From positions 1-64,000 of the forward strand of contig NZ_NBWU01000001.1 of the NCBI RefSeq assembly GCF_002514735.1: DNA of 64,000 nt, written 5' to 3'. The notes beneath the pieces were generated by a model that had not been told where the DNA came from, did no database searches, and saw nothing but the letters and a program-made list of their open reading frames with translations. This document shows, in pieces, positions 3,614-63,370 of the stretch. This stretch comes from Sediminicola luteus. GTDB lineage: Bacteria; Bacteroidota; Bacteroidia; Flavobacteriales; Flavobacteriaceae. The position numbers and the translations under genes are program-made. How positions within the stretch are numbered: position 1 is the stretch's first letter; the number at the start of each line of letters is the position of its first letter.

Positions 3614-3642
3614 TTCCCGCCTGCCGGACGGGCAGGCGGGAA
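3614..3642. repeat. Palindromic intergenic repeat, perfect GC-rich inverted repeat
   Basis: CCCGCCTGCC and GGCAGGCGGG flank a GGACG-type centre, giving a nearly perfect long hairpin. A second smaller hairpin, CCCCGA/TCGGGG, follows at 3654-3670. Neither is followed by a T-run. The sequence resembles REP-like palindromes scattered through Bacteroidetes intergenic space. The 3574-3826 interval otherwise holds a TATTTTTG -7 box at 3754-3761 that probably serves the next gene. Confidence 0.6.
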
Positions 3643-26449: not shown

Positions 26450-27348
26450 GCGATCAAAGGTAAGTTCTTTTTTTGCAATTTTTGGTTCATGCCGGCAATG
26501 CCTTGTAAACCTCCCGTATGTATAGCCAGTATTCGGGACCCCTCAGAAAACCTTGCCGCGCTGATCATATCGAGTATACCAAACATCATTTTTCCGGTAT
26601 AGACCGGATCTAAAGGAATTCCGGTAACCTGTTTAAAATCGTTGATAAAGCCAACCAATTCCTTCGACATCTTGGCATAACCCCCAAAATGGTAGTCGGC
26701 AACCAAGGCCCAATTGTCGCGTGGCGTCAACGCTTTGATTTCTTGCTTCAAAAAATCTCCTTTTAGGGCCGGGAAACCCAAAACTTCCTGATTCGGTGAA
26801 GCTCCTTGGCTTAAACCGGCTATGGTGCCCCCGGTACCCACTGCGGTACAGACAAAATCAAAACCGGTATCAATGGGGTTTAAGATTTCTGTGCATCCTT
26901 TAACGGCCAAGGTATTGGTACCTCCTTCGGGCACCATATAAAATGGGCCTAAATGACTTTCTAACGATGCGATAAACTCCAGAGAATCCTTTTCCCTGTA
27001 GCGGCTTCTACTTATAAAGTGAAAACGCATACCATGGTCGTAGGCCTGTTTCAAGGTAGGGTTATCGATCCAGTTTCCCTCCAATTCCTCGCCCCGGATC
27101 ACGCCAATGGTCTTAAGACCGTGTTTATAACCCGCATAGGCCGTAGCTGAAATATGGTTCGAAAAGGCGCCACCAAAAGTAAGTAAGGTAGTGGCACCTT
27201 TTTTTTGGGCTTCCTCAATATTGTATTTGAGTTTCCGGAATTTATTCCCCGATATCCACGGGTGAAGCAGGTCTTCTCGTTTTAGGTACAATCGGATGTT
27301 TTTTTCGGCCAGTCCGGGCCAAATAATTTCCTGATTTTCCGAAATCAT
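26446..27348 (-). CDS. 1-aminocyclopropane-1-carboxylate deaminase / D-cysteine desulfhydrase family
   Basis: A PLP enzyme of the tryptophan synthase beta fold. The lysine motif is HPWISGNKFRKLKYNI, with the cofactor-binding FGGAFSNHISATAYAG next. EGGTNTLAVKGCTEI and VGTGGTIAGLSQG form the phosphate-binding segments. Length (300) fits. The substrate, D-cysteine or ACC, cannot be settled from sequence; the bacterial default is D-cysteine desulfhydrase. It is embedded in the hemL operon. Confidence 0.9.
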   Translation of the reverse strand: MISENQEIIWPGLAEKNIRLYLKREDLLHPWISGNKFRKLKYNIEEAQKKGATTLLTFGGAFSNHISATAYAGYKHGLKTIGVIRGEELEGNWIDNPTLKQAYDHGMRFHFISRSRYREKDSLEFIASLESHLGPFYMVPEGGTNTLAVKGCTEILNPIDTGFDFVCTAVGTGGTIAGLSQGASPNQEVLGFPALKGDFLKQEIKALTPRDNWALVADYHFGGYAKMSKELVGFINDFKQVTGIPLDPVYTGKMMFGILDMISAARFSEGSRILAIHTGGLQGIAGMNQKLQKKNLPLIA

Positions 27349-53011: not shown

Positions 53012-53087
<76 letters not shown>

Positions 53088-53096
53088 GCAAAGACA

Positions 53097-53126
53097 AGGG
53101 TTTCAAGAGATTGAAACCCTTTTTTT
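53097..53126 (+). terminator. Terminator carried by the element, replacing the tRNA's own
   Basis: AGGGTTTCAA (53097-53106) pairs with TTGAAACCCT (53111-53120) over GAGA, then T6. It lies inside the element, next to attL. Confidence 0.88.
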
Positions 53127-53141
53127 ATACCCATAATTTTC

Positions 53142-53164
53142 TTGGGTACAACATAGGTACAACA
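53142..53164 (+). repeat. Element-end repeat, left copy
   Basis: TTGGGTACAACATAGGTACA plus ACA: 23 bases containing two GGTACAACA units 11 bases apart. It is identical to 61302-61324 at the other end, in the same orientation, and is a likely arm-type binding site for the recombinase. Confidence 0.8.
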
Positions 53165-53795
53165 AACAACTCTTGTAGAAAATATATTTAAATAGATTGA
53201 ATTGGGTAAGGATAATCTTTTGAAATCTGTGTTCAAACATGAAATAAAATTGACTTCTGGGCTGTTTGCAATTATCATAAATGTATGTCATGGATTCTTC
53301 AATTTATTCAGATGGTTCATCTAAATCTTTATAGGTCAAATTTCACAAGGTAACATTACCAATATCGGCCACTGATTAAATAATTAACGACGCTAAGCTT
53401 TATGTGTTTTATCCATTGAAGAATCCACTAAAACCATATTCGTCCTCCAATATTTTTTGAAAATAGAACCGAAATTTAGGCTGTGGGATAAAATTTGGAA
53501 ACCACAAAACTAGACCTGTATACTTAGCCATTTTAGTAGGCTCCTGAACAGGAATATTTGGCTTTCATGATTGCTGCTTCCCTGATAGGAAATCTGAATA
53601 CTTATCCTTTTTCGTTCAGTAGTTAAACTAAGGCTATAGAGTTCTCCGCGGATATCCAATAAAACCTGACTTTTATTTCTTGAAACACTACAAAAAAACA
53701 ATTGCCATTTTCCATTAGACTCATAAAAACTATTTTAAGTTTTTATGAGTCCATATGGCCATATATTTTTTGTCAGCACCTACTTTACTTTTAAA
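53165..53795. other. Left-end region of the element, no confident gene
   Basis: It contains a 13-bp inverted repeat TGGATTCTTCAAT (53291-53303) / ATTGAAGAATCCA (53415-53427). A 40-residue minus-strand frame (53409-53531; MAKYTGLVLWFPNFIPQPKF then RFYFQKILEDEYGFSGFFNG) looks protein-like but has no known family and a stop just upstream, so it may be a relic. Otherwise AT-rich with no feature. Confidence 0.4.
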
Positions 53796-55988
53796 ATGAA
53801 TAAAATCAAAACTATAAATACGCTTTTCTTATTTGTTTTTACATGTTTTTCGGTAACGGTTCAAGCTCAAAACAAAAAAATAGACAGCTTAAGAATTGAA
53901 TTGGCCAATCATAGAAAAAATGATACTACACAGGTTAATTTACTACAAGATTTAGCATCCTCCTTTTTTCGAACAAATATGGACTCTTCCATGGTGTACT
54001 TGAAGAAAGCTGAAGAATTAAGTAATGATTTAAACTATATAAAAGGAAAGGCAAATGTTTGTTACCTAAAGGGCATACACGAAAACATAAAATCGAATTA
54101 TGCAAAGAGTTTATACTTTTTTAAGGCCTCATTAAAGCACTACCAATCCATCAGGAATAAAAAGGGAATTGCAAATATTCATACGGCCTTTGGAATAACC
54201 CATTATGACCAGTCCCAATATGATGAAGCCATAGATGCCTATAAAAAGGCGATGGTGATTTATACTGAATTGGGAAATAGGAGAGAGTTGGCCACCACTT
54301 TAATAAACACGGCCAATGTATATACCGAAATGGGAAGGTATAATATAGCCATTGCCCATTATAAAAACGCATTAAGGCATAGCATTGCCATCGAAGATGA
54401 AGATGGAGTGGCTTTTGTACAATCTAACTTGGGGGCACTATACGCAAACCAAGGCAACTACCTTTTAGCTATTGAGAACTATAACAAAGCCCTGGACTAT
54501 AATCAAAAAACAGGTTATAGTTTATCCACAGCGAAAATATTAGACAATCTGGGAATGGTTTATAATTCTCTAAAAAAACACGACAAGGCAATATCATATT
54601 ATGAACAATCAATTAACCTTACCACAAAAAATGAAAGTAAACAAAGAACCGCAATAAACAACGGAAATATAGCGGATATTTACGTAGCTAAAAAAGAGTA
54701 TTCGAAAGCTCTTGAACATTACCATATATCGCTGGAAATAAGCGAAGAAATCAACGATTTAAAACAAGCATCCATAAGTTTGGGCAATATTGGAAAGGTA
54801 AATCTTAAATTGGACAAACCTTTAATCGCGCGCAACCATTTTATTGAAGCCAAGGATATTAGTCAGAAAATCGGTTATAAGGATATGTATTCCTCATGTC
54901 TATTAGCTATTGCCGAAACCTATCTTTCTGATAAAAAATATAATAAAGCGCTTTCTCTCACTGAAAAAGGAAAACAAATTGCTGAGGAACTCGAATTGTT
55001 GGGGAATCAAAAAAAAGCAAACGAAATTCTCTCAATAATTTATAAGAACAAGGGAGATTTTGAAAAGGCATTTTATAGTCTCCAGCAATTTAAAATTCTA
55101 AGTGACAGCGTTTTTAACAAGGAAAACATTGAAAAAATCACCCAGTTAGAATACGAATTTAAATACAAAAACGAATTGGAGTCAGCAGAAAAGAGAGAAT
55201 TACAGCTAACTAAAACGGTTTTGACCACCTCCGAGGATCTTGAAAAATCAAAACGAAACTATTTATGGGCCATCATTGGTGTTCTTTTGATTTCCATTGT
55301 ATCAATTTCCATTATTTTCTATCAAAAGTTACGAAACGAAAAAACGAAGACACTTAATGTTATGGTAGAGCAAAAATTATTACGTTCTCAAATGACACCT
55401 CATTTTATCTTTAATTCACTCTCCGTACTGCAAGGAATGATCTTGAATACAGAAACGAAAAAATCAGTCTCCTACTTGTCCAAATTCTCAAAACTACTTC
55501 GTATCATATTGGAAAACTCTAGGGATAAAACGGTTTTACTTTCACAAGAATTAACAGCTATAAGGAATTACTTGGCACTCCAAAATTTAGAAAATGAAAA
55601 CTACAATTATACGGTGCTAGTGGATGAATCTATTGATGAATCATTGTTTCATATCCCCCCAATGCTTATTCAGCCTTTTGTTGAAAATGCGATTGAACAC
55701 GCTTTTACCAGCCAACAAGATAATAGGTGTATTGCTATTCAATTGATTTATTCAAACAAAGAATTGACCTGTACCATTATAGACAATGGAATTGGAATCG
55801 AAGCCTCAAAGAGCAATAAAAACCAAAATAAAAAATCACTATCTACAACCATTACTTCCGAACGTATAAAAATACTTTCAAAAGATTTTAAAATGAAGGG
55901 GGCCGTTTCAGTAAAAGATAGAAGGAATTATAACGAACAAGGAACAATGGTTACACTGGTTATTCCTTATGAAATACACACTGCATAG
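53796..55988 (+). CDS. TPR-sensor histidine kinase, LytS/YpdA type
   Basis: The 730-residue product starts MNKIKTINTLFLFVFTCFSV (signal, cleavage after VQAQ). About eight TPRs fill 60-430 (DYNQKTGYSLSTAKILDNLG-like units), then a transmembrane helix near 503-520 (YLWAIIGVLLISIVSISII) and a His_kinase domain. The phospho-His motif is QMTPHFIFNSLSVLQ. N-box HIPPMLIQPFVENAIEHAF and the IIDNGIGI G-box are intact. A LytTR-type response regulator normally follows; here it is a pseudogene. Confidence 0.93.
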   Translation: MNKIKTINTLFLFVFTCFSVTVQAQNKKIDSLRIELANHRKNDTTQVNLLQDLASSFFRTNMDSSMVYLKKAEELSNDLNYIKGKANVCYLKGIHENIKSNYAKSLYFFKASLKHYQSIRNKKGIANIHTAFGITHYDQSQYDEAIDAYKKAMVIYTELGNRRELATTLINTANVYTEMGRYNIAIAHYKNALRHSIAIEDEDGVAFVQSNLGALYANQGNYLLAIENYNKALDYNQKTGYSLSTAKILDNLGMVYNSLKKHDKAISYYEQSINLTTKNESKQRTAINNGNIADIYVAKKEYSKALEHYHISLEISEEINDLKQASISLGNIGKVNLKLDKPLIARNHFIEAKDISQKIGYKDMYSSCLLAIAETYLSDKKYNKALSLTEKGKQIAEELELLGNQKKANEILSIIYKNKGDFEKAFYSLQQFKILSDSVFNKENIEKITQLEYEFKYKNELESAEKRELQLTKTVLTTSEDLEKSKRNYLWAIIGVLLISIVSISIIFYQKLRNEKTKTLNVMVEQKLLRSQMTPHFIFNSLSVLQGMILNTETKKSVSYLSKFSKLLRIILENSRDKTVLLSQELTAIRNYLALQNLENENYNYTVLVDESIDESLFHIPPMLIQPFVENAIEHAFTSQQDNRCIAIQLIYSNKELTCTIIDNGIGIEASKSNKNQNKKSLSTTITSERIKILSKDFKMKGAVSVKDRRNYNEQGTMVTLVIPYEIHTA

Positions 55989-56290
55989 TCAAAGTAAATC
56001 ACTACTGATAAAGGATAAGGAAAACACATCAAAAGGCTAGCTAGGTTGATGCCGAAGTAGAGGTGATTGGAAAATACGAATCGAGAAAAAATGCTTTGGC
56101 AATGGTAAATACCTGAGCTCAGTACTTTGTAGTATTGGATATTGATCTTACCGATGGTTGCGGATTTGATTTTCTTCTGAACAAACCGAGAACTTGAGTT
56201 TTAAAGTATTTTTTATTGTAGCCAATTAAGAGCATATGTAAATGCTTTTAAAAGTTGCCGTTTTTGAAACATGTGGCTTCATAGACTACA
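55969..56290 (+). pseudogene. Broken LytTR-type response regulator
   Basis: The start overlaps the kinase gene by the usual amount (ATG 55969). After a frameshift the receiver domain can be read: DAEVEVIGKYESRKNALAMV (from 56048), a stop, then YFVVLDIDLTDGCGFDFLLN, which holds the phospho-acceptor Asp context. A further frame change gives ENLSFKVFFIVAN then another stop. At least two frameshifts and several stops are present, and no DNA-binding domain can be read. Downstream to 56857 only fragments remain. Confidence 0.8.
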
Positions 56291-56857
56291 AAAGAACCTG
56301 AAGAATGTCTTTACACTGCTAACTATGAAGGCCTTCACCAATTCTTTAAGGCCAGTTTAAAGGTTAAAGACGAGTTTGACGAATCGGGTTTTACTCATTT
56401 CACAAATAGCAAAAAACACCTGAGTTCTCAAGAAAAAAAAAACAGTTTTGGAGCGCACTTTTACACTGGACCGCATACCAAAACTTGTTTCCTTACTCGG
56501 AAATCCTTTCAAATTCCACGTTTATTTATTCAAGAATTCCAGAAATAGGTTCATTATTTCCTCCTTCTCCTTCCGCATATACTTTTATCGCTACAATCAA
56601 CAATAGAGAATATGGACAAATCAAATCTAAGTACTGGTTTTAAACTCCTATAGCAAATCCAAACCTCATGAGGAGTATCAAGTATAAAGGACTAAGAAAT
56701 TTCTAAGACATCTGATTCAATCATATCATCATTAACACAAGATGAATTGATTATCACTATACAAACAAGCATCACCCTTCATTAGGATCTTTTAAAGATT
56801 TTTCCCCAACAGCAAGACTTGAGCTAAATAAAAACTAACCGGTTTATATCATAAAAA

Positions 56858-57436
56858 ATGAAAAAAATATCAATTGTACTATTTATAACAATCATTTTCT
56901 CTTGCAAGGGCAAGAAGGACCACATCAGTGACCCCGATGAAATCGAATCAATACAAGAGCTTGTAAATGAGATTTTTGAAAAGGACAAAGAGGTCTATTA
57001 CCTTTCCCTAAGTGCTGAGGACAAGTTAAGAGGAACATTAAGTTCAATCTATTTCACTTATAAGTTCAAGGACACATACTTTGATCAAACCTATGATGTG
57101 CAAAGTAAGACCTTTAGCGATCCCGCTAAAAAGTCGTACGACTACAAAAAAGGGTTTAAGATAGGTGATTTGGACATTGGCTCTATACCAGAATGGTATA
57201 TGGAAGCGCTACAAATTTTGAATGATAAAGAGCTTTTAATAGAAGATAAGCTTTACTATCTCGATGATTGGAACTATAGAGTTGATAACAAAGGGAAAAT
57301 CTACGCACGTTTCGCCTTGAACTATTATTTAAGTTCACATTCGAGAAGCAGTGGTAGAGGCAGAGTGACCACTACAACATACGCTTCCCATGACTTTTTA
57401 TTAAAAGACAATCAGTTAAAACTTTTAAATCACTAA
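56858..57436 (+). CDS. Lipoprotein of unknown function (element cargo 1)
   Basis: The 192-residue product has lipobox FSC in signal MKKISIVLFITIIFSC. The mature part is Lys/Asp/Tyr-rich, with a possible helix (IESIQELVNEIFEKD) then strands (YYLSLSAEDKLRGTLSS, IYFTYKFKDTYF). A Ser/Arg-rich turn (SSHSRSSGRGRVTTTT) precedes the C-terminus. No family recognised. It has weak architectural likeness to the next gene. Confidence 0.6.
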   Translation: MKKISIVLFITIIFSCKGKKDHISDPDEIESIQELVNEIFEKDKEVYYLSLSAEDKLRGTLSSIYFTYKFKDTYFDQTYDVQSKTFSDPAKKSYDYKKGFKIGDLDIGSIPEWYMEALQILNDKELLIEDKLYYLDDWNYRVDNKGKIYARFALNYYLSSHSRSSGRGRVTTTTYASHDFLLKDNQLKLLNH

Positions 57437-57438
57437 GC

Positions 57439-58053
57439 ATGATAAAAAGTAGTCTAAAATCCATTCTTTTTATTGCATTGTATTTGTCACTAATAAACTG
57501 TAGTGGTGGTAGTTCCGAAATAGTATTACATACCCAAGAAGGTATAGATAACTTGAACAAGTTACTTAAGAGTGAGTTTGATTTAGAAAAGGAAATTACA
57601 TCACTAAGCATTTCAAATCTAAACTCAAACTCTCCAAAAGTGGATCAAATCACAATCTTCTTTGTTGAGAATAACATGATGGACATGTGGTTTTACTCAA
57701 TAACTACATCAAAGCTTCATAAGCCAGACCCTAAAGAGAAAAGTGATTTCCAACCAAGGTCACAAAAAATCAAAGATTTAAATACGGCTAAAATCCTCAC
57801 CAATTATAAGGAAGCAGTAGCAATGATTACCAATACCACCGATGAATTTGCGAATTTTTACATATACGGTTACGAAATACAAGTAAATAAAGATTCAGAT
57901 ACGACAGAACACTCTTTTGATGTTTATGCAGAAAAAACATCAAAAGGGGTTAGTTACTATGGGAAAAGGTTGGTGGAAAACAAATTCAAATTTTCATTTG
58001 ATACAGATAAATCTGGACAACTAATTTGTACGGATGGGTTAGATGTTTTCTAA
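57439..58053 (+). CDS. Lipoprotein of unknown function (element cargo 2)
   Basis: The 204-residue product has lipobox INC in ILFIALYLSLINC, a Gly/Ser spacer, then a helix (GIDNLNKLLKSEFDLEKE) and strands (ITSLSISNLNSN, VDQITIFFVENN). The helix-then-two-strand start mirrors cargo 1 and suggests a common origin. It is two bases downstream of cargo 1, so they form an operon. Function unknown. Confidence 0.6.
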   Translation: MIKSSLKSILFIALYLSLINCSGGSSEIVLHTQEGIDNLNKLLKSEFDLEKEITSLSISNLNSNSPKVDQITIFFVENNMMDMWFYSITTSKLHKPDPKEKSDFQPRSQKIKDLNTAKILTNYKEAVAMITNTTDEFANFYIYGYEIQVNKDSDTTEHSFDVYAEKTSKGVSYYGKRLVENKFKFSFDTDKSGQLICTDGLDVF

Positions 58054-58096
58054 CACCATTCATATTGACATATTGAATAACAAAAAAACCAAAAAA

Positions 58097-58546
58097 ATGA
58101 AAGTCACAGTATTTAAGGCTATTGATGATCCAACAATCGATGATATAGAAAAAGTAATAAAAGACAAACTAGGCGACAAGTACACATATAAATCGTCCAG
58201 AAAAGCATCTAGTATGGCCGGTAAATTATTAAAAGGTTCTCCCGAAGACTCCATTACAGTAATAAAAAATGCGTATCACAGATACGTTGTGCTTTTGCGT
58301 GCTGATAAAGACCCTACATCAGCATCAGGAATGTATACAACAATTCATTTTTCAAGTGCAACATTGGCAGGCTGGTTAGGTTTTTTACATAGGGAAGTTG
58401 GTTTCATAGGTCGAATCATTATTCGTGCCATTTATGGAAATGATGACCCCATTTATAATGAAGTAAAAACGATTGTAACGGACAATTTTAAAATTGAAGA
58501 AGAAACATTTGACACTGGGATTGGATCTTTGTTTAAAAAGGGATAA
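58097..58546 (+). CDS. Protein of unknown function (element cargo 3)
   Basis: The 149-residue product starts MKVTVFKAIDDPTIDDIEKV with a beta-alpha-beta feel and no signal. A hydrophobic helix follows near 85-112 (ATLAGWLGFLHREVGFIGRI). I take the ATG at 58097; a start at 58043 would overlap cargo 2. Not recognised. It may work with the two lipoproteins upstream. Confidence 0.55.
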   Translation: MKVTVFKAIDDPTIDDIEKVIKDKLGDKYTYKSSRKASSMAGKLLKGSPEDSITVIKNAYHRYVVLLRADKDPTSASGMYTTIHFSSATLAGWLGFLHREVGFIGRIIIRAIYGNDDPIYNEVKTIVTDNFKIEEETFDTGIGSLFKKG

Positions 58547-60060
58547 CAAATCCACTCAACGATAATCAACAGGAAAAACGTATTAAAATCATACCAACTT
58601 TTCCCCAATGAATGACAAAAAAGACAGCCAGGTAAGATGAAAAGGTTGAAGCAATAGCCTTCATCAATGAGAAACAATATGATAAGGTTTCACCTACCAT
58701 ATTGGATAAAGCCAGGGTTTATTTATGAAGCAAGAAGAACAGCAATATATCTGAAACAGCCCATGGGTTTATTTGTTACTTCACTAATTGTGATAAATCT
58801 ATTGAGTGTTTCTAGGAGTTCATAGGGATTTTGTTACAATTTTGGAGATTGAACCTAAAACCCTCAACGTCTCGGATTCTCATAAATAGGGGCTTGAGAA
58901 GGGAAAATGGAAAAGTAACGGTGCGCCAGCACGTTACCCTCTTGCTATTCCATTTTCTCCCCACAGGGTCTAAAATTCCATACGACTTGATTAAAATCGG
59001 TCGCCAAAAGTCAAATCTACCCGGTGGCCTTCGAAGATATTTACTCCTATTGGGCAATTTCGTAATCCAATAAGATATAGTTAGGTTAGAGGGGCCTGAA
59101 ATGGAAGGTGCGTCTAGGTTAATTCTTACTGTTGCTCTTAAGGTTAAGGAAAAATTGGAAAACTGCCTAATCTTTATCATACAGTACAACCGCAAAGGAG
59201 AGGGTAATTATCAATGGAGAACTGGTATTGCCCTCTCTATTTTTTATGGATTTCCAAAGTAAAACACTCACCACTTAAGTTATCATTGTTTTTTCCATAT
59301 ATCTTTTTACCTTCTTCTGCCCTTACCATTTCCACGGCCAAACGGATTCAAATAAAATCAACTATTCTAAGAAAGGCTAAAGACTATGCCAAGCAGTTAC
59401 CCCAAAGGCTTTTCCCTTTTTCCGGAATAATGTGGTTCATAGATTGCCAATGGAAAACGCCCCAAAATCATCCAGCTTTCCATTAAAACCTGCTTTGTCC
59501 ATTTACCCATAAATGCCGATAAATCGTATTGAATTCGAATTGCCATGCCTATGACCTGTTCTTTTGGTGGGTCTTAAGGGGACAATCACTTATTTCTTTC
59601 ACATTAACCCCAAAATAAAAGAAGTGGGTTCGGTCAAGGCTTTTAGCGACCTATCGATTTCGGTTATGGACAACCCCTTAACAATGCCAAATAGATCACT
59701 CCGGTAACTTGGCTATAAGGTGGATAAAACCTTGCATGGCCTTGACGGGTTCCACAAAGGGGTTAGAAACCCTTTCCGGAGGGGGTGGGCGGAACTTGTG
59801 TACGGGGAGTTAAGCGAATGTAGCCCATCACTTCGGATTAGGGTTTCTTAGCCCATGCCCCGTTTTTCGTCGTCCCGATAAACGATTAGGGCTTCTTTTA
59901 TTATACCCCCTTAAGACCCTTATATCCAAGGCAAACCAATTGGCCGTTCAAGGTAAGAATGCAGTCATTGATAAAGTAGTGTAAATTACCAAACATTTCT
60001 GTATACCGATAGATTCTGTCATGGTTAAGAAAATTTCGATTAAACCCGAGGCATCCCTTG
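58547..60060. other. 1.5-kb decayed, non-coding part of the element
   Basis: No intact gene. Coding relics can be read: VEAIAFINEKQYDKVSPTIL then DKARVYL (plus strand, near 58640-58730); AVEMVRAEEGKKIYGKNNDN then LSGECFTLEIHKK (minus strand, near 59240-59340), broken upstream by stops. Hairpins: GTAACGGTGC/GCACGTTAC (58915-58937) and ACGGGG/CCCCGT with a T5 tail (59802-59868). Reads as degraded cargo plus possible structured DNA or RNA. Confidence 0.5.
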
Positions 60061-61269
60061 TTAAAAATCAATCACCTTATCCAAAGCACTATCAGCATCA
60101 TTTTTCATGAAACTGGCTTGATAGGCAACCGTCGTGGTAATGGATGAATGACGATACAGCTTTTGCAACATTTGAATAGGTATTTTATCACCCGAGATAT
60201 TCCCAAAGGTATGCCGTGCTATGTGCATACTTATTTTTTTATCTATCTCTAAATGATTACCCACCAATTGCAATCTTCTATTCAAGGTTCTAGTAACCGT
60301 CCGTATGCGAGTTAACTTCTCCTTCGCATCGTCGAAGTTTGTGCCCTTCAAATATGGAAAAACCAAACCGTTTTTATCCGAAGATGTCCTATTAAACTGC
60401 TGAAGTATTACTAAAGCTTTTTCCGGTATTTTAAGTGAAACCAGTTTTTGATTTTTATTCATTCTATAATGCAAACGATTATCATGAAAGTCTGACCATC
60501 GTAATTGCAAAACATCACTCACTCTTATCCCGGCAAAATAAAAACTCGTCAACCAAACATTAACGGCCTGTTGCTGTGCTGGGGTTAAACCATCCGCATT
60601 TTCTAATTTCTTTACTTCCTCAATGGACAACCCGATTTTTTCCGACTCAGGTATTTTGATTTGAATCTTCCCTTTTCCGAAAGGATAAGTATTGCGTTCG
60701 ATTATACCCTCAGAAATAGCCAGGTTAAAAATTTTACGGATTAAAATCATGTAGTTTACCGCTGTCCTAGGCTTCCTTTTTTCCTGATTAAGTATAAAGC
60801 TTTCGAAGTTTTTAAGTAAGAAAACCGAGATTTCTTTAAATGTAAGTGTTTGTTGTCCTGTAAACTTACGGAACTTCTCTATACGGCCTCTTTGAGTTTG
60901 GTATTGGCGATATTTTTCTGCCTTTTGAAGGTTGTCCAAATGAAGTTCTGCTACTCCGAAAAAATCCAATTGATTTGTTCCAATAATGTCCCCCCTTATA
61001 CGGGATGCCGTAACATTGACTTCGTTTATCTCTGCTTCAAGCAATTTCTCATTTGCTTTGGTGAGGTTTTTAAGAATTAAATGGTTTATACGAGAGGCAT
61101 TTGGATGGGATCGTTTTACCTTTCTATTAGTTGTGTCCCAATATTTTTGGTCTATATATTGACCAGTAGAGATAAACGAAGCCTTTCTATCCTTGGTAAT
61201 TCGTATAGCTATTGGGAATAGGTTTTGGGAATTCCTTTTTTTTCGTAAAACTGCTTGGACGGTTGCCAT
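60061..61269 (-). CDS. int: Tyrosine recombinase (phage integrase family)
   Basis: The 402-residue integrase has an N-terminal arm-type DNA-binding region (FPIAIRITKDRKASFISTGQ), a SAM-like core-binding domain (about 100-200) and a catalytic domain. Residues are Arg in AGIRVSDVLQLRW, a Lys-turn segment, HIARHTFG (His-x-x-Arg) and LYRHSSITTTVAYQ with His and the Tyr nucleophile. All are intact. It points inward from the right attachment site, 33 bases from the 23-bp repeat. Of the Bacteroidetes type with an N-terminal Arm domain. Confidence 0.96.
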   Translation of the reverse strand: MATVQAVLRKKRNSQNLFPIAIRITKDRKASFISTGQYIDQKYWDTTNRKVKRSHPNASRINHLILKNLTKANEKLLEAEINEVNVTASRIRGDIIGTNQLDFFGVAELHLDNLQKAEKYRQYQTQRGRIEKFRKFTGQQTLTFKEISVFLLKNFESFILNQEKRKPRTAVNYMILIRKIFNLAISEGIIERNTYPFGKGKIQIKIPESEKIGLSIEEVKKLENADGLTPAQQQAVNVWLTSFYFAGIRVSDVLQLRWSDFHDNRLHYRMNKNQKLVSLKIPEKALVILQQFNRTSSDKNGLVFPYLKGTNFDDAKEKLTRIRTVTRTLNRRLQLVGNHLEIDKKISMHIARHTFGNISGDKIPIQMLQKLYRHSSITTTVAYQASFMKNDADSALDKVIDF

Positions 61270-61301
61270 AATTTATACCCTGAATTTAAAGATACGATTT
61301 T

Positions 61302-61324
61302 TTGGGTACAACATAGGTACAACA
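61302..61324 (+). repeat. Element-end repeat, right copy
   Basis: Identical to 53142-53164 (two GGTACAACA units). It lies 33 bases upstream of the integrase start codon, so it could be both an arm site and an operator of int. Confidence 0.8.
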
Positions 61325-61429
61325 TTTGTTGATATTATATGGTTGTTTTTGAAGTAGAATAAAATTATTTTATTTCTATTTAATTGATAATCAGTGTTTT
61401 TGAATTTTATTACATCGTAACTGTAAATT

Positions 61430-61474
61430 CTCATAACCCGAAGGTCACAGGTTCGAGTCCTGTTCCCGCTACTA
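61430..61474 (+). other. attR: second copy of the 45-bp attachment repeat
   Basis: Exact duplicate of 53043-53087 (tRNA 3' half from the anticodon loop). It does not form a complete tRNA. It is followed by CGAAAGCC and a terminator. Confidence 0.93.
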
Positions 61475-61477
61475 CGA

Positions 61478-61510
61478 AAGCCCTTTTGATTACCTCAAAA
61501 GGGTTTTTTT
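61478..61510 (+). terminator. Displaced tRNA terminator next to the GIY-YIG start codon
   Basis: CCCTTTTGA (61481-61489) pairs with TCAAAAGGG (61495-61503), then T7 (61504-61510). The ATG of the GIY-YIG gene is the very next base. Confidence 0.88.
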
Positions 61511-61759
61511 ATGGCCAATTTTGTCACATACATCTTATACTCTGAAAAATATAGTAAAATCTATATTGGCTATACCTCAAACCTTATTGCTCGATTTAAA
61601 TCCCATAATGAGTTGGGGCAGTCAGGGTATACCAAGAAATTCAGGCCATGGATGGTGGCTTGGGTCTTTTTCCATGATTCCAAGAAGGAAGCTTTGGCAC
61701 ATGAACGTTTTCTAAAATCTGGAAAAGGTAGGGAGTACATTTACGCAAAAATCCTTTAA
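61511..61759 (+). CDS. GIY-YIG endonuclease family protein (82 residues)
   Basis: A minimal GIY-YIG nuclease domain like the UvrC N-terminus. Residues VTYILYS (GIY position) and KIYIGYTSNL (YIG position) are present, then Arg in LIARFKSHN, HN and an acidic residue (HERFLKSGKGREYI), giving the catalytic set. Length fits stand-alone Bacteroidetes members. It is not preceded by a promoter: its ATG adjoins the T-tract of a terminator. It is flanked by 37-bp tRNA-end repeats (61446-61482 and 61797-61833). Confidence 0.93.
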   Translation: MANFVTYILYSEKYSKIYIGYTSNLIARFKSHNELGQSGYTKKFRPWMVAWVFFHDSKKEALAHERFLKSGKGREYIYAKIL

Positions 61760-61796
61760 CAGCGCTAGGTAAGGCTCATATCCGCCCAAGGCGGAC

Positions 61797-61833
61797 ACAG
61801 GTTCGAGTCCTGTTCCCGCTACTACGAAAGCCG
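61797..61833 (+). repeat. Third copy of the tRNA 3' end (37 bp)
   Basis: Identical to 61446-61482, including the eight bases CGAAAGCC beyond the tRNA end. Preceded by a TCCGCC-CAA-GGCGGA hairpin and an incomplete tRNA-like stretch (GCGCTAGGTAAGGCTCATA), so it looks like the 3' part of a rearranged tRNA. Confidence 0.85.
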
Positions 61834-61860
61834 GATACGAAAGTATCTGGCTTTTTTTAT
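61829..61860 (+). terminator. Probable original tRNA-fMet terminator
   Basis: AAGCCGGATAC (61829-61839) pairs with GTATCTGGCTT (61844-61854) over a GAAA loop, then T5. A well-formed stem after the third repeat copy. Confidence 0.85.
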
Positions 61861-61888
61861 AGCCGTTGGTCGATGTTGGCATTTAATT

Positions 61889-63370
61889 CTATTGGCCCCT
61901 ATGTTTCACAAACTCCATGGGCTTTGAATACGGAAATTTCACTATCAGGGTATCGATCGATTCGTTTTCCTCCTTTACTGCAAAATCTATTTCTTCCGGA
62001 CCAATATCAAAATTCAAAAATGCCGTGAATTCCATTTTTTCTTTATGACCGACCGTTCCTTCGAAATCATAATACTTAAAATCAAATTGATCTTCTTTCG
62101 GTCTGGAGATTTTAATTTCACCATAAGCCGGATGGGTGTACCGTCCTGCCAAATCGGTTAGTCTATCGAGCAGATCTTTATTCGAAATACTGCGAATTTG
62201 CTGTTTTAGGTTGCTAAACTGACCACCTTTTTCTACTATGACATCAATTTCTTCTAGAACTTCCAGTTTATTATTCAAGAATATTTCCGTAGCATAATAA
62301 TCTATGGCATTCGATATAACACTTTGTTGGTTGGCCAAGACCACGATGCCATACCCTTTTTCCAAATTGAAGGTGAGCCTCGATCTTTGCCCGGCCGTAC
62401 TACCATTATGAAAGATGTTTCCATTTTCCAAGGCCACATTCCAACCTATTCCATAGGCTTGTTTGTCTTCTGGGTATCTTATGGTCAAAGGACTGGTGAT
62501 ATAGTCGAATTGTTCCTTGGCTATAAAAGGTTTATGGTTATGATTACCGCCATTGGTAAAGACCAACAACCATTTGCCCATATCGTTGATACTTGAGGTT
62601 ATGCAACCCGCAGGGGCCACTGACTCTATATTGTAATGTTTTATGATTTGCCTTCCGTCGGCATTATAACTGATCGCCCGATTCCGGCTTTCCATAAAAT
62701 CGTTAAAGTCTGTTTTGGTATCTGTCATACCCAGCCTTTCAAAAATATAGGTTTTGATTAGTGACCCCCAGGCTTTTTGGGTCACCCTTTCCTGTAAAAT
62801 TCCGGCAACGGCATACATATAGTTACTGTAACTAAAATCTGCCCGAAAACTGCCCTTAAAACTCATATGTGGCAGTCGGCCCAAAAGTTCTTGCATGGGA
62901 AAAACCGGACCGTAGTTCATAAAATAGTGTTCATACAAATTTACCCTATGGGTCAACAGATCTTGAACCGTGGCATGCTCCGTGGCATAATCGTCGGCCA
63001 ATTTAAACTCGGGTATATGCCTTATTACCTTATCCTGCCAAGAAAGCTCTCCCGCTTCTACCAATTGTGCCATTAAAACACCGGTAAATGCTTTTCCCAA
63101 GGAACCTATTTCGAAGAGGGTGCTATCGGTTACCGGTAGCTTCCCAACCAGATTCCTATAACCCCAGGTCTTTTTCAAAATCAATCGATTGTCATAAACT
63201 ACGGCTAGGGCCAGCCCAGGTGTATTGGCTTTTTCCTTTAACCTTTCAACAACCTTAATGAAATAAGAGAGCTTATCTTGTACATCCGCCTCCGAGCGGA
63301 CCGAATCCGGTGTTTGGGAAAAAACAAGGGTATGTACACCTATTAAAATCGTTATAAGTTTCACTCGCAT
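61889..63370 (-). CDS. Serine hydrolase, class C beta-lactamase-like (penicillin-binding fold)
   Basis: The 493-residue exported product has a signal peptide (LITILIGVHTLVFSQ) and then the fold. The SxxK motif is EIGSLGKAFTG (Ser-Leu-Gly-Lys), the YxN motif is SYSNYMYAV and the third box is HNGSTAG. A C-terminal beta-rich extension (about 370-493) is of the DUF3471 kind. Class: beta-lactamase-like amidohydrolases of unknown substrate. The gene after it is an AraC regulator. Confidence 0.92.
   Translation of the reverse strand: MRVKLITILIGVHTLVFSQTPDSVRSEADVQDKLSYFIKVVERLKEKANTPGLALAVVYDNRLILKKTWGYRNLVGKLPVTDSTLFEIGSLGKAFTGVLMAQLVEAGELSWQDKVIRHIPEFKLADDYATEHATVQDLLTHRVNLYEHYFMNYGPVFPMQELLGRLPHMSFKGSFRADFSYSNYMYAVAGILQERVTQKAWGSLIKTYIFERLGMTDTKTDFNDFMESRNRAISYNADGRQIIKHYNIESVAPAGCITSSINDMGKWLLVFTNGGNHNHKPFIAKEQFDYITSPLTIRYPEDKQAYGIGWNVALENGNIFHNGSTAGQRSRLTFNLEKGYGIVVLANQQSVISNAIDYYATEIFLNNKLEVLEEIDVIVEKGGQFSNLKQQIRSISNKDLLDRLTDLAGRYTHPAYGEIKISRPKEDQFDFKYYDFEGTVGHKEKMEFTAFLNFDIGPEEIDFAVKEENESIDTLIVKFPYSKPMEFVKHRGQ

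Follow-up and report, generated by a model that had tools for sequence, protein, structure and literature searches.

A small GIY-YIG nuclease gene and a hairpin recur as a unit at bacterial tRNA genes

Here, we describe a small unit in which a gene for a GIY-YIG nuclease is typically flanked by an intact copy of a tRNA gene on one side and, on the other, by a truncated copy that is usually interrupted by a hairpin. The unit recurs on the strand of its tRNA, at genes of many isotypes and in several phyla; a conserved site is found both occupied and cleanly empty; the hairpin is associated with the nuclease and, in one of its classes, shows base-pair covariation; and the nuclease bears the mark of purifying selection. 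On balance, we consider it probable that nuclease and hairpin form a selfish unit that invades tRNA genes while sparing one intact copy.

The unit at tRNA-fMet

Within the window (the whole 64,000-nt stretch of Sediminicola luteus DNA analysed here), the intact tRNA-fMet now lies 8.4 kb from its GIY-YIG unit because a later island intervened. The features of the locus are the following.

53012-53085, + strand: intact tRNA-fMet (CAT), owner of the unit (ARAGORN and Rfam tRNA match)
60061-61269, - strand: tyrosine integrase of the later island, a neighbour outside the unit (ORF, Pfam)
61430-61474, + strand: tRNA-fMet 3′ part, 45 bp identical to 53043-53087 (sequence comparison)
61446-61482, + strand: first 37-bp repeat, tRNA 3′ end plus CGAAAGCC (exact copy)
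61481-61510, + strand: terminator-like hairpin (61481-61503) and T-tract, between the tRNA end and the ATG of P0001
61511-61759, + strand: stand-alone GIY-YIG nuclease gene P0001, 82 aa (ORF, Pfam, AF2 model)
61760-61780, + strand: degenerate 5′/anticodon-side remnant of the truncated tRNA copy, CAGCGCTAGGTAAGGCTCATA (sequence)
61781-61795, + strand: perfect 15-nt hairpin TCCGCCCAAGGCGGA splitting the truncated tRNA copy (sequence)
61796-61824, + strand: truncated tRNA copy, 3′ part, 29 bp identical to 53059-53087 (sequence)
61796-61832, + strand: second 37-bp repeat (exact copy)
61825-61858, + strand: second terminator-like hairpin and T-tract, 3′ of the truncated copy (sequence)

The initial annotation had already described the two 37-bp repeats as exact copies, which they are; the second, placed there at 61797-61833 with a period of 351 bp, occupies 61796-61832, and the period is 350 bp. 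It had also correctly noted that the ATG of P0001, at 61511, immediately follows the terminator T-tract, and the near-tRNA remnant that it pointed out proves to consist of degenerate sequence from tRNA-fMet (61760-61780) and, directly behind it, the 15-nt hairpin (61781-61795). For the 27-bp core of the repeat, the mean number of chance matches was 0.00, three matches being reached in 0/100 shuffles of the sequence, and the 25-bp tRNA-fMet end, with up to three mismatches allowed, has three sites in the 4.56-Mb genome, all at the window locus. A group I intron with a GIY-YIG ORF is rejected, as a search for intron RNA around the ORF (60900-62300) yielded nothing in Rfam at E values up to 1.

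The island is an 8.4-kb integrase element (53043-61474) that sits in tRNA-fMet between the 45-bp copies 53043-53087 and 61430-61474, the latter being both the right-hand island copy and the original tRNA-fMet 3′ end that bears the GIY unit. As had been stated previously, the two repeats of the unit agree for 8 bases past the 45 bp common to the island copies, and because of this the unit must be older than the island, an order of events that the initial annotation had proposed and that the extra common bases support. The use of tRNA-fMet by this island, together with the fact that tRNA 3′ ends are common att sites, could suggest that the tRNA pieces are old att sites of tyrosine integrases and the GIY gene leftover cargo. 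We regard this as very improbable, given that the unit copies run beyond those of the island, that many units are built on 5′ parts of the tRNA and have their hairpins within the tRNA copy, and that tandem units directly abut one another. Integrative elements with att sites at tRNA ends keep the tRNA intact by supplying a part of it, and they encode a recombinase; the present unit does not, its longest ORF within the 350 bp being the 82-aa nuclease, with no integrase inside.

Elsewhere in the same genome, about 63 kb (G000:C5:348188-412250; L056, L161) separate tRNA-Ala from its GIY array, which starts with an orphan 3′ part of the same tRNA; this stretch is probably another island in a unit-bearing tRNA.

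Linkage to tRNA genes within and beyond the family

A search of the organism's own genome with P0001 returned six matches, and a family profile returned seven at E<=1e-12, 7/7 of them beside tRNA genes or pieces. The units of this genome stand at fMet, Pro-GGG, Arg-TCG (two in tandem), Ala-GGC (two in tandem, one with a stop) and Phe, with the nuclease gene on the tRNA strand and truncated tRNA copies adjoining; in addition, nuclease-less hairpin-bearing tRNA fragments occur at Trp, Ala, Arg-CCT and Pro-TGG. Among 60 relatives, P0001 found matches in 23 genomes, and the family profile, built from 21 members that were chosen because they are tRNA-linked and that are counted among the unnamed loci below, had matches at 1e-12 in 78/110 genomes of the family.

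For the unnamed loci, where all listed matches above about 70 bits and some below were taken, tRNA linkage was seen in 61/62 at a profile score of at least 84 (the sole exception stops 16 bases short of a contig edge), in 14/26 at 66-84, in 1/10 at 60-66 and in 2/12 full-length matches below 60. The named loci, which are the best 79 of 541 candidates listed for public genomes with an Arg-clade profile, provide the more independent test of linkage, because the other profile was built from linked members. In this set, a tRNA on the same strand lies within 600 bp in 76/79 loci, and an exact extra copy of part (at least 13 nt) of this tRNA is present in 70/79. Besides Bacteroidota, the loci represent records of Uhrbacteria, Kerfeldbacteria, Neomarinimicrobiota and Scalindua; the Val-GAC nuclease of a Scalindua record groups as sister (100/84) with one from Flavobacteriales, and both are accompanied by tRNA halves of their respective hosts.

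The expectation of the initial annotation that homologues would sit at tRNA 3′ ends holds with regard to tRNA adjacency (76/79 and 61/62), but not with regard to the 3′ end, as, relative to the nearest tRNA, 94 of the 161 labelled units are on the upstream side and 67 on the downstream side (labels were assigned manually at 11 loci, and the Arg-clade search has enriched the set). In the upstream architecture, an orphan tRNA 5′ part with the hairpin is followed by the nuclease gene and then by the full tRNA; in the downstream architecture, to which the window unit belongs, the full tRNA is followed by a terminator, the gene and a 3′ part with the hairpin, often with a similar terminator behind it. 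When an exact 12-nt core is required and every array copy is counted, the acceptor strand is the same as that of the intact tRNA in 72/85 upstream and 30/38 downstream copies. The tRNA end had been thought to be carried by the unit; the partial copies are indeed there, but the 72/85 upstream copies that match the host speak against a foreign end. The tRNA copy in a unit is mostly the host's own rather than a carried donor end, and therefore target duplication or gene conversion between copies must be invoked. One half-converted hybrid tRNA copy was seen (array L131), and acceptor-stem mismatches, examined as a trace of imported tRNA halves, gave no clear signal either way.

Two or more copies or fragments are present in 24/106 unnamed locus/strand sets and 11/79 named loci. 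Tandem arrays without a nuclease, with periods of about 58-116 bp and composed of hairpin-bearing or truncated tRNA pieces, precede an intact tRNA at L118, L131, L175 and L300. In addition, copies of about 17 nt of the tRNA 3′ end (approximately positions 57-75) are located downstream of the genome's own tRNA-Arg genes TCT (L062), ACG (L084) and TCG (L081), and similar ones at L261, L279 and L319; at tRNA-Arg TCT and ACG they come after a similar stretch of about 110 nt lacking a nuclease ORF. These are perhaps a second family of tRNA-end repeats.

Plasmids and phages were considered as carriers, but the searches gave weak matches alone (three on plasmids with P0001, two in phages with the genome's own Arg-unit protein). 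Seven viral contigs bear relatives, with a tRNA within 600 bp in two of the seven and hairpin-bearing tRNA pieces in two others (L250, L252); these may represent host flanks. A number of contigs end at unit-bearing tRNA loci.

Occupied and empty sites

Comparison of closely related strains for a clean empty site was possible at another tRNA of the family, the yqeY-tRNA-Arg(TCG) locus, rather than at the fMet locus of the window, the genus of which is not among the 60 relatives. The set comprises 70 family loci, 30 from a listing and 40 picked from the remaining 77; the picks include three genomes with a known unit, and five occupied loci, one of them a duplicate, were added to the table. A nuclease unit is present in 4 of the 70 genomes, the tRNA alone in 64, and no tRNA-Arg was found in 2. 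Within one genus, 10 of 12 congeners are clean and 2 are occupied, one by a single unit and the other by three tandem units, the 10 clean sites having neither tRNA fragments nor CCTGnC hairpins. Occupied and clean empty alleles of one site thus exist at yqeY, as for free-standing homing endonuclease genes. In the two occupied congeners, the nucleases are 71% identical and the YqeY proteins 91%; a single origin of the two nucleases is not rejected (AU p=0.26), and independent acquisition within the genus is accordingly unsupported. One congener without the unit (L335) carries a clearly different tRNA-Arg(TCG) at this locus, possibly through tRNA gene replacement.

It had been foreseen that the idea of a mobile unit would suffer if empty sites already held the repeats. 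This is not so in 10/10 congeneric and 56/64 family sites lacking the GIY gene, the latter being without a tRNA fragment of at least 12 nt; the remaining 8 consist of three 5′ fragments, three 57-75 end copies and two 12-nt matches only. Of the GIY-bearing yqeY genomes in the table, 7/8 have a tRNA fragment of that length, and the eighth (L324) has a diverged fragment with a hairpin. That GIY-less tRNA fragments exist at all would fit rearrangements of tRNA genes that are unrelated to the GIY gene, which would then merely ride along, but fragments of at least 12 nt are absent from 56/64 GIY-less and present in 7/8 GIY-bearing genomes, and we give this explanation hardly any weight.

The hairpin

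The initial annotation mentioned the hairpin without interpreting it; our analyses show that it is the second recurrent component of the unit and that it tracks the nuclease clade. In size alone, the hairpin of the fMet unit is unremarkable, being one of 61 in the window with a stem of at least 6, and at least two further window hairpins have TCC..GGA arms (26593-26608 and within 3614-3642); what is telling is its recurrence at the same place in related units. A hairpin with a stem of at least 6 is present in 121/161 unit flanks, compared to 16/481 control windows from the same loci (161 of 189 rows were counted, the 28 without an assigned tRNA being left out); by this criterion, 40/161 units are without a hairpin. 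Unit hairpins are mostly about 14-40 nt long. At 33 Arg, Leu and Met loci, 35 of the 43 hairpin junctions that have two collinear exact tRNA matches are insertions with zero tRNA bases lost, most often after tRNA position 22, 32, 39, 26 or 15 (e.g. 22|23, 32|33, 39|40), and the commonest inserted hairpin is the 20-mer CCTGCCTGCCGGCAGGCAGG or a variant of it. Two tRNA copies (L184, L219) contain two insertions each.

Positions 5 and 12 of the CCTGnC hairpin covary, with C-G in 36 loci, T-A in 10 and a mismatch in 0/46. The looser TCC..GGA pattern, which also catches non-hairpins, has complementary outer pairs in 37/50 and inner pairs in 36/50. The hairpin of the fMet unit in the window is of the class TCCGCC..GGCGGA, whose 8 classified rows are Met-CAT units without exception.

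The dispersal of such hairpins in the organism's own genome differs between types. A general dispersed REP-type repeat is rejected for TCCCGA..TCGGGA, with 12 hairpins genome-wide, of which seven are located at tRNA genes or pieces of them; wider dispersal is seen for the CCTGnC type, with 60 matches versus 12 in the reversed control. CCTGCC..GGCAGG palindromes are also found as pairs with a spacing of about 60-100 bp, at sites without a listed tRNA gene (e.g. C1:443307/443366, C2:636567/636659 and C5:110957/111059), and these pairs look REPIN-like. The window hairpin at 3614-3642 is a 29-nt palindrome with the core CCTGCCGGACGGGCAGG, which is listed at three more genome sites (C1:1095646, C4:198845 and C4:407874).

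Hairpin class, nuclease phylogeny and tRNA isotype

The tree of 189 nuclease domains was built from 79 columns, and many of its forks are poorly supported. Isotype-and-side labels require 66 changes on it, the minimum possible being 37 and the shuffled mean 146. For hairpin class, compared in 119 of 161 rows (41 without a class and one with two were dropped) and with classes defined as patterns after the sequences had been inspected, 10 changes suffice, against a shuffled mean of 49.1 and minimum of 41 in 100 shuffles; in the same 119 rows, isotype takes 31 changes (shuffled 83.6) and side 15 (shuffled 36.1). By these counts, hairpin class is more tightly tied to the nuclease tree than tRNA isotype is. 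Moreover, the nearest nuclease at another isotype has the same hairpin class in 93/119 cases (shuffled mean 43, maximum 64), and for isotypes with several classes the nearest nuclease shares the class in 86/98 (shuffled 55.6). The Asn unit L019, for example, has a nuclease of the Pro clade and a hairpin of the Pro type CACGC, while in the nine other Asn rows the CCCGA type is found four times, TCCCGC and CCTGnC once each, and no type in three. Hairpin and nuclease thus tend to remain paired even where the tRNA differs; this agreement could be produced by common descent of whole units alone and falls short of proof of recognition.

A protein tied to short GC-rich palindromes that are kept through complementary changes recalls the RAYT/REP system, RAYTs being obligately associated with palindromes that match the protein (PMC2817692, in the part cited here). 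According to the same part of that source, RAYTs are tyrosine transposases resembling those of IS200/IS605, each placed between two inverted REPs, which are usually present in more than 100 copies. By analogy, the hairpin itself might be mobile, with the GIY-YIG protein as its mobiliser and the tRNA as a tolerated landing site, and GIY-less hairpin-bearing tRNA pieces would then be non-autonomous copies. This would account for hairpin class following protein clade, for insertions without base loss, including the two within one tRNA copy at L184 and L219, for the nuclease-less pieces that this genome has at Trp, Ala, Arg-CCT and Pro-TGG, and for GIY-less 5′ fragments at the yqeY locus in three family genomes, two of which have an evident hairpin (L316, L318). 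Nevertheless, of the RAYT/REP traits, a palindrome that follows the protein lineage is found here and an IS200/IS605-like (HUH) transposase is not, the fold being GIY-YIG; most units have one hairpin, inside the tRNA copy, rather than two inverted ones; and the fresh tRNA duplication that accompanies the nuclease gene is left unexplained. We therefore consider transposition of the hairpin in this manner unlikely.

The nuclease

P0001 matches the Pfam GIY-YIG family PF01541 (E=9e-16). Y6, Y17, G19, R27, H31 and E64, which we take to be catalytic residues, are among the positions invariant in 21 family rows, and the AF2 model (mean pLDDT 93) consists of the GIY-YIG fold alone. The nearest solved relatives by profile and fold are UPF0213 and SLX1 proteins (PDB 1zg2, 1ywl, 6seh, 7cq2), with fold matches to 1zg2 and SLX1 at a best E of 1.3e-3 and probability 1.00. 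The P0001 family is a member of the GIY-YIG nuclease superfamily. The SLX1 entries in the PDB are titled as acting on branched DNA, and their chains, of 183-324 residues with further parts, are unlike the present proteins of about 80 aa; to our knowledge, neither UPF0213 nor SLX1 forms a tRNA-linked unit. The median dN/dS is 0.21, with values below 0.5 in 37/38 pairs, which overlap and include tandem copies. The family proteins look to be under purifying selection, most of the compared copies having been kept functional; truncated or interrupted nuclease copies are also present among the units. In PHROGs, the window protein has no match at 0.001, and 5/21 relatives match phrog_314, 'homing endonuclease' (best 6.8e-6).

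SegB, which we take to be larger than these ~80-aa proteins with their catalytic fold only, is together with RAYT/REP the closest analogue that we found, tRNA linkage and tandem copies being seen in both SegB and the present units. In phage T6, it is a free-standing GIY-YIG homing endonuclease located in a tRNA cluster, and the tandem tRNA amplification that this phage enzyme brings about is described as adaptive against a tRNA-cleaving defence (PMC13096335, in the part cited here). The same part speaks of C-terminal truncation and mentions for this phage-borne enzyme neither a hairpin nor a pair of broken and intact tRNAs. By analogy with SegB, a break-and-repair cycle in the present units is plausible.

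The adaptive role of SegB, as described in that source, and the purifying selection on our nucleases may both be cited for a domesticated host function, in which nuclease and hairpin would regulate or protect tRNA expression or counter a tRNA-targeting attack and the arrays would be host adaptations. Still, presence at a conserved locus is patchy (4/70 family loci, 2/12 congeners), the multiplied material is mostly tRNA fragments rather than whole tRNAs, and truncated or interrupted nuclease copies exist, which makes a host function decidedly unlikely in our judgement.

A putative cycle and its implications

Under our preferred reading of a selfish unit, the nuclease would break a tRNA gene by DNA cleavage, and repair of the break would install the nuclease gene and the hairpin, leaving a second tRNA copy; the host would survive as one copy stays intact. 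Recombination between the tRNA copies could then amplify, homogenise or lose units, the hairpin may be recognised by the nuclease, and the unit would move horizontally. The weakest point of this scheme is that the intact copy should keep any site within the tRNA, leaving avoidance of self-cleavage unexplained: the hairpin disrupts one tRNA copy, yet an intact one persists. This objection would not apply to an enzyme that depends on flanking sequence or that has the hairpin as its substrate.

We also put forward, as a bolder proposal that we hold to be possible though somewhat less likely than its opposite, that a GIY-YIG protein of about 80 aa and its cognate hairpin constitute an undescribed mobile class, which crosses tRNA genes, isotypes and phyla with a fresh tandem copy of the host tRNA each time, by which the essential tRNA would survive, the hairpin serving as the recognition end and GIY-less hairpin copies being non-autonomous. 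No description of such a unit was found in the open-access literature, a scope outside which most subscription papers and preprints lie. If the proposal is true, these units would perhaps be among the smallest mobile elements with an enzyme of their own.

Some of the hairpin-bearing truncated copies (L015, L036, L037, L096) are labelled by ARAGORN as tRNA-SeC or as tRNAs with a stop anticodon, and such units are a source of false tRNA annotations. Small GIY-YIG genes are readily dismissed as having a repair or housekeeping role. The subfamily described here is, as a whole, linked to tRNA loci of Bacteroidota and several further phyla and has a hairpin as its partner. If mobile, these units would show how a parasite only a few hundred bases long can enter essential genes without danger, and they would provide a compact nuclease-hairpin pair whose specificity is directly testable through the hairpin classes and the tRNA positions.
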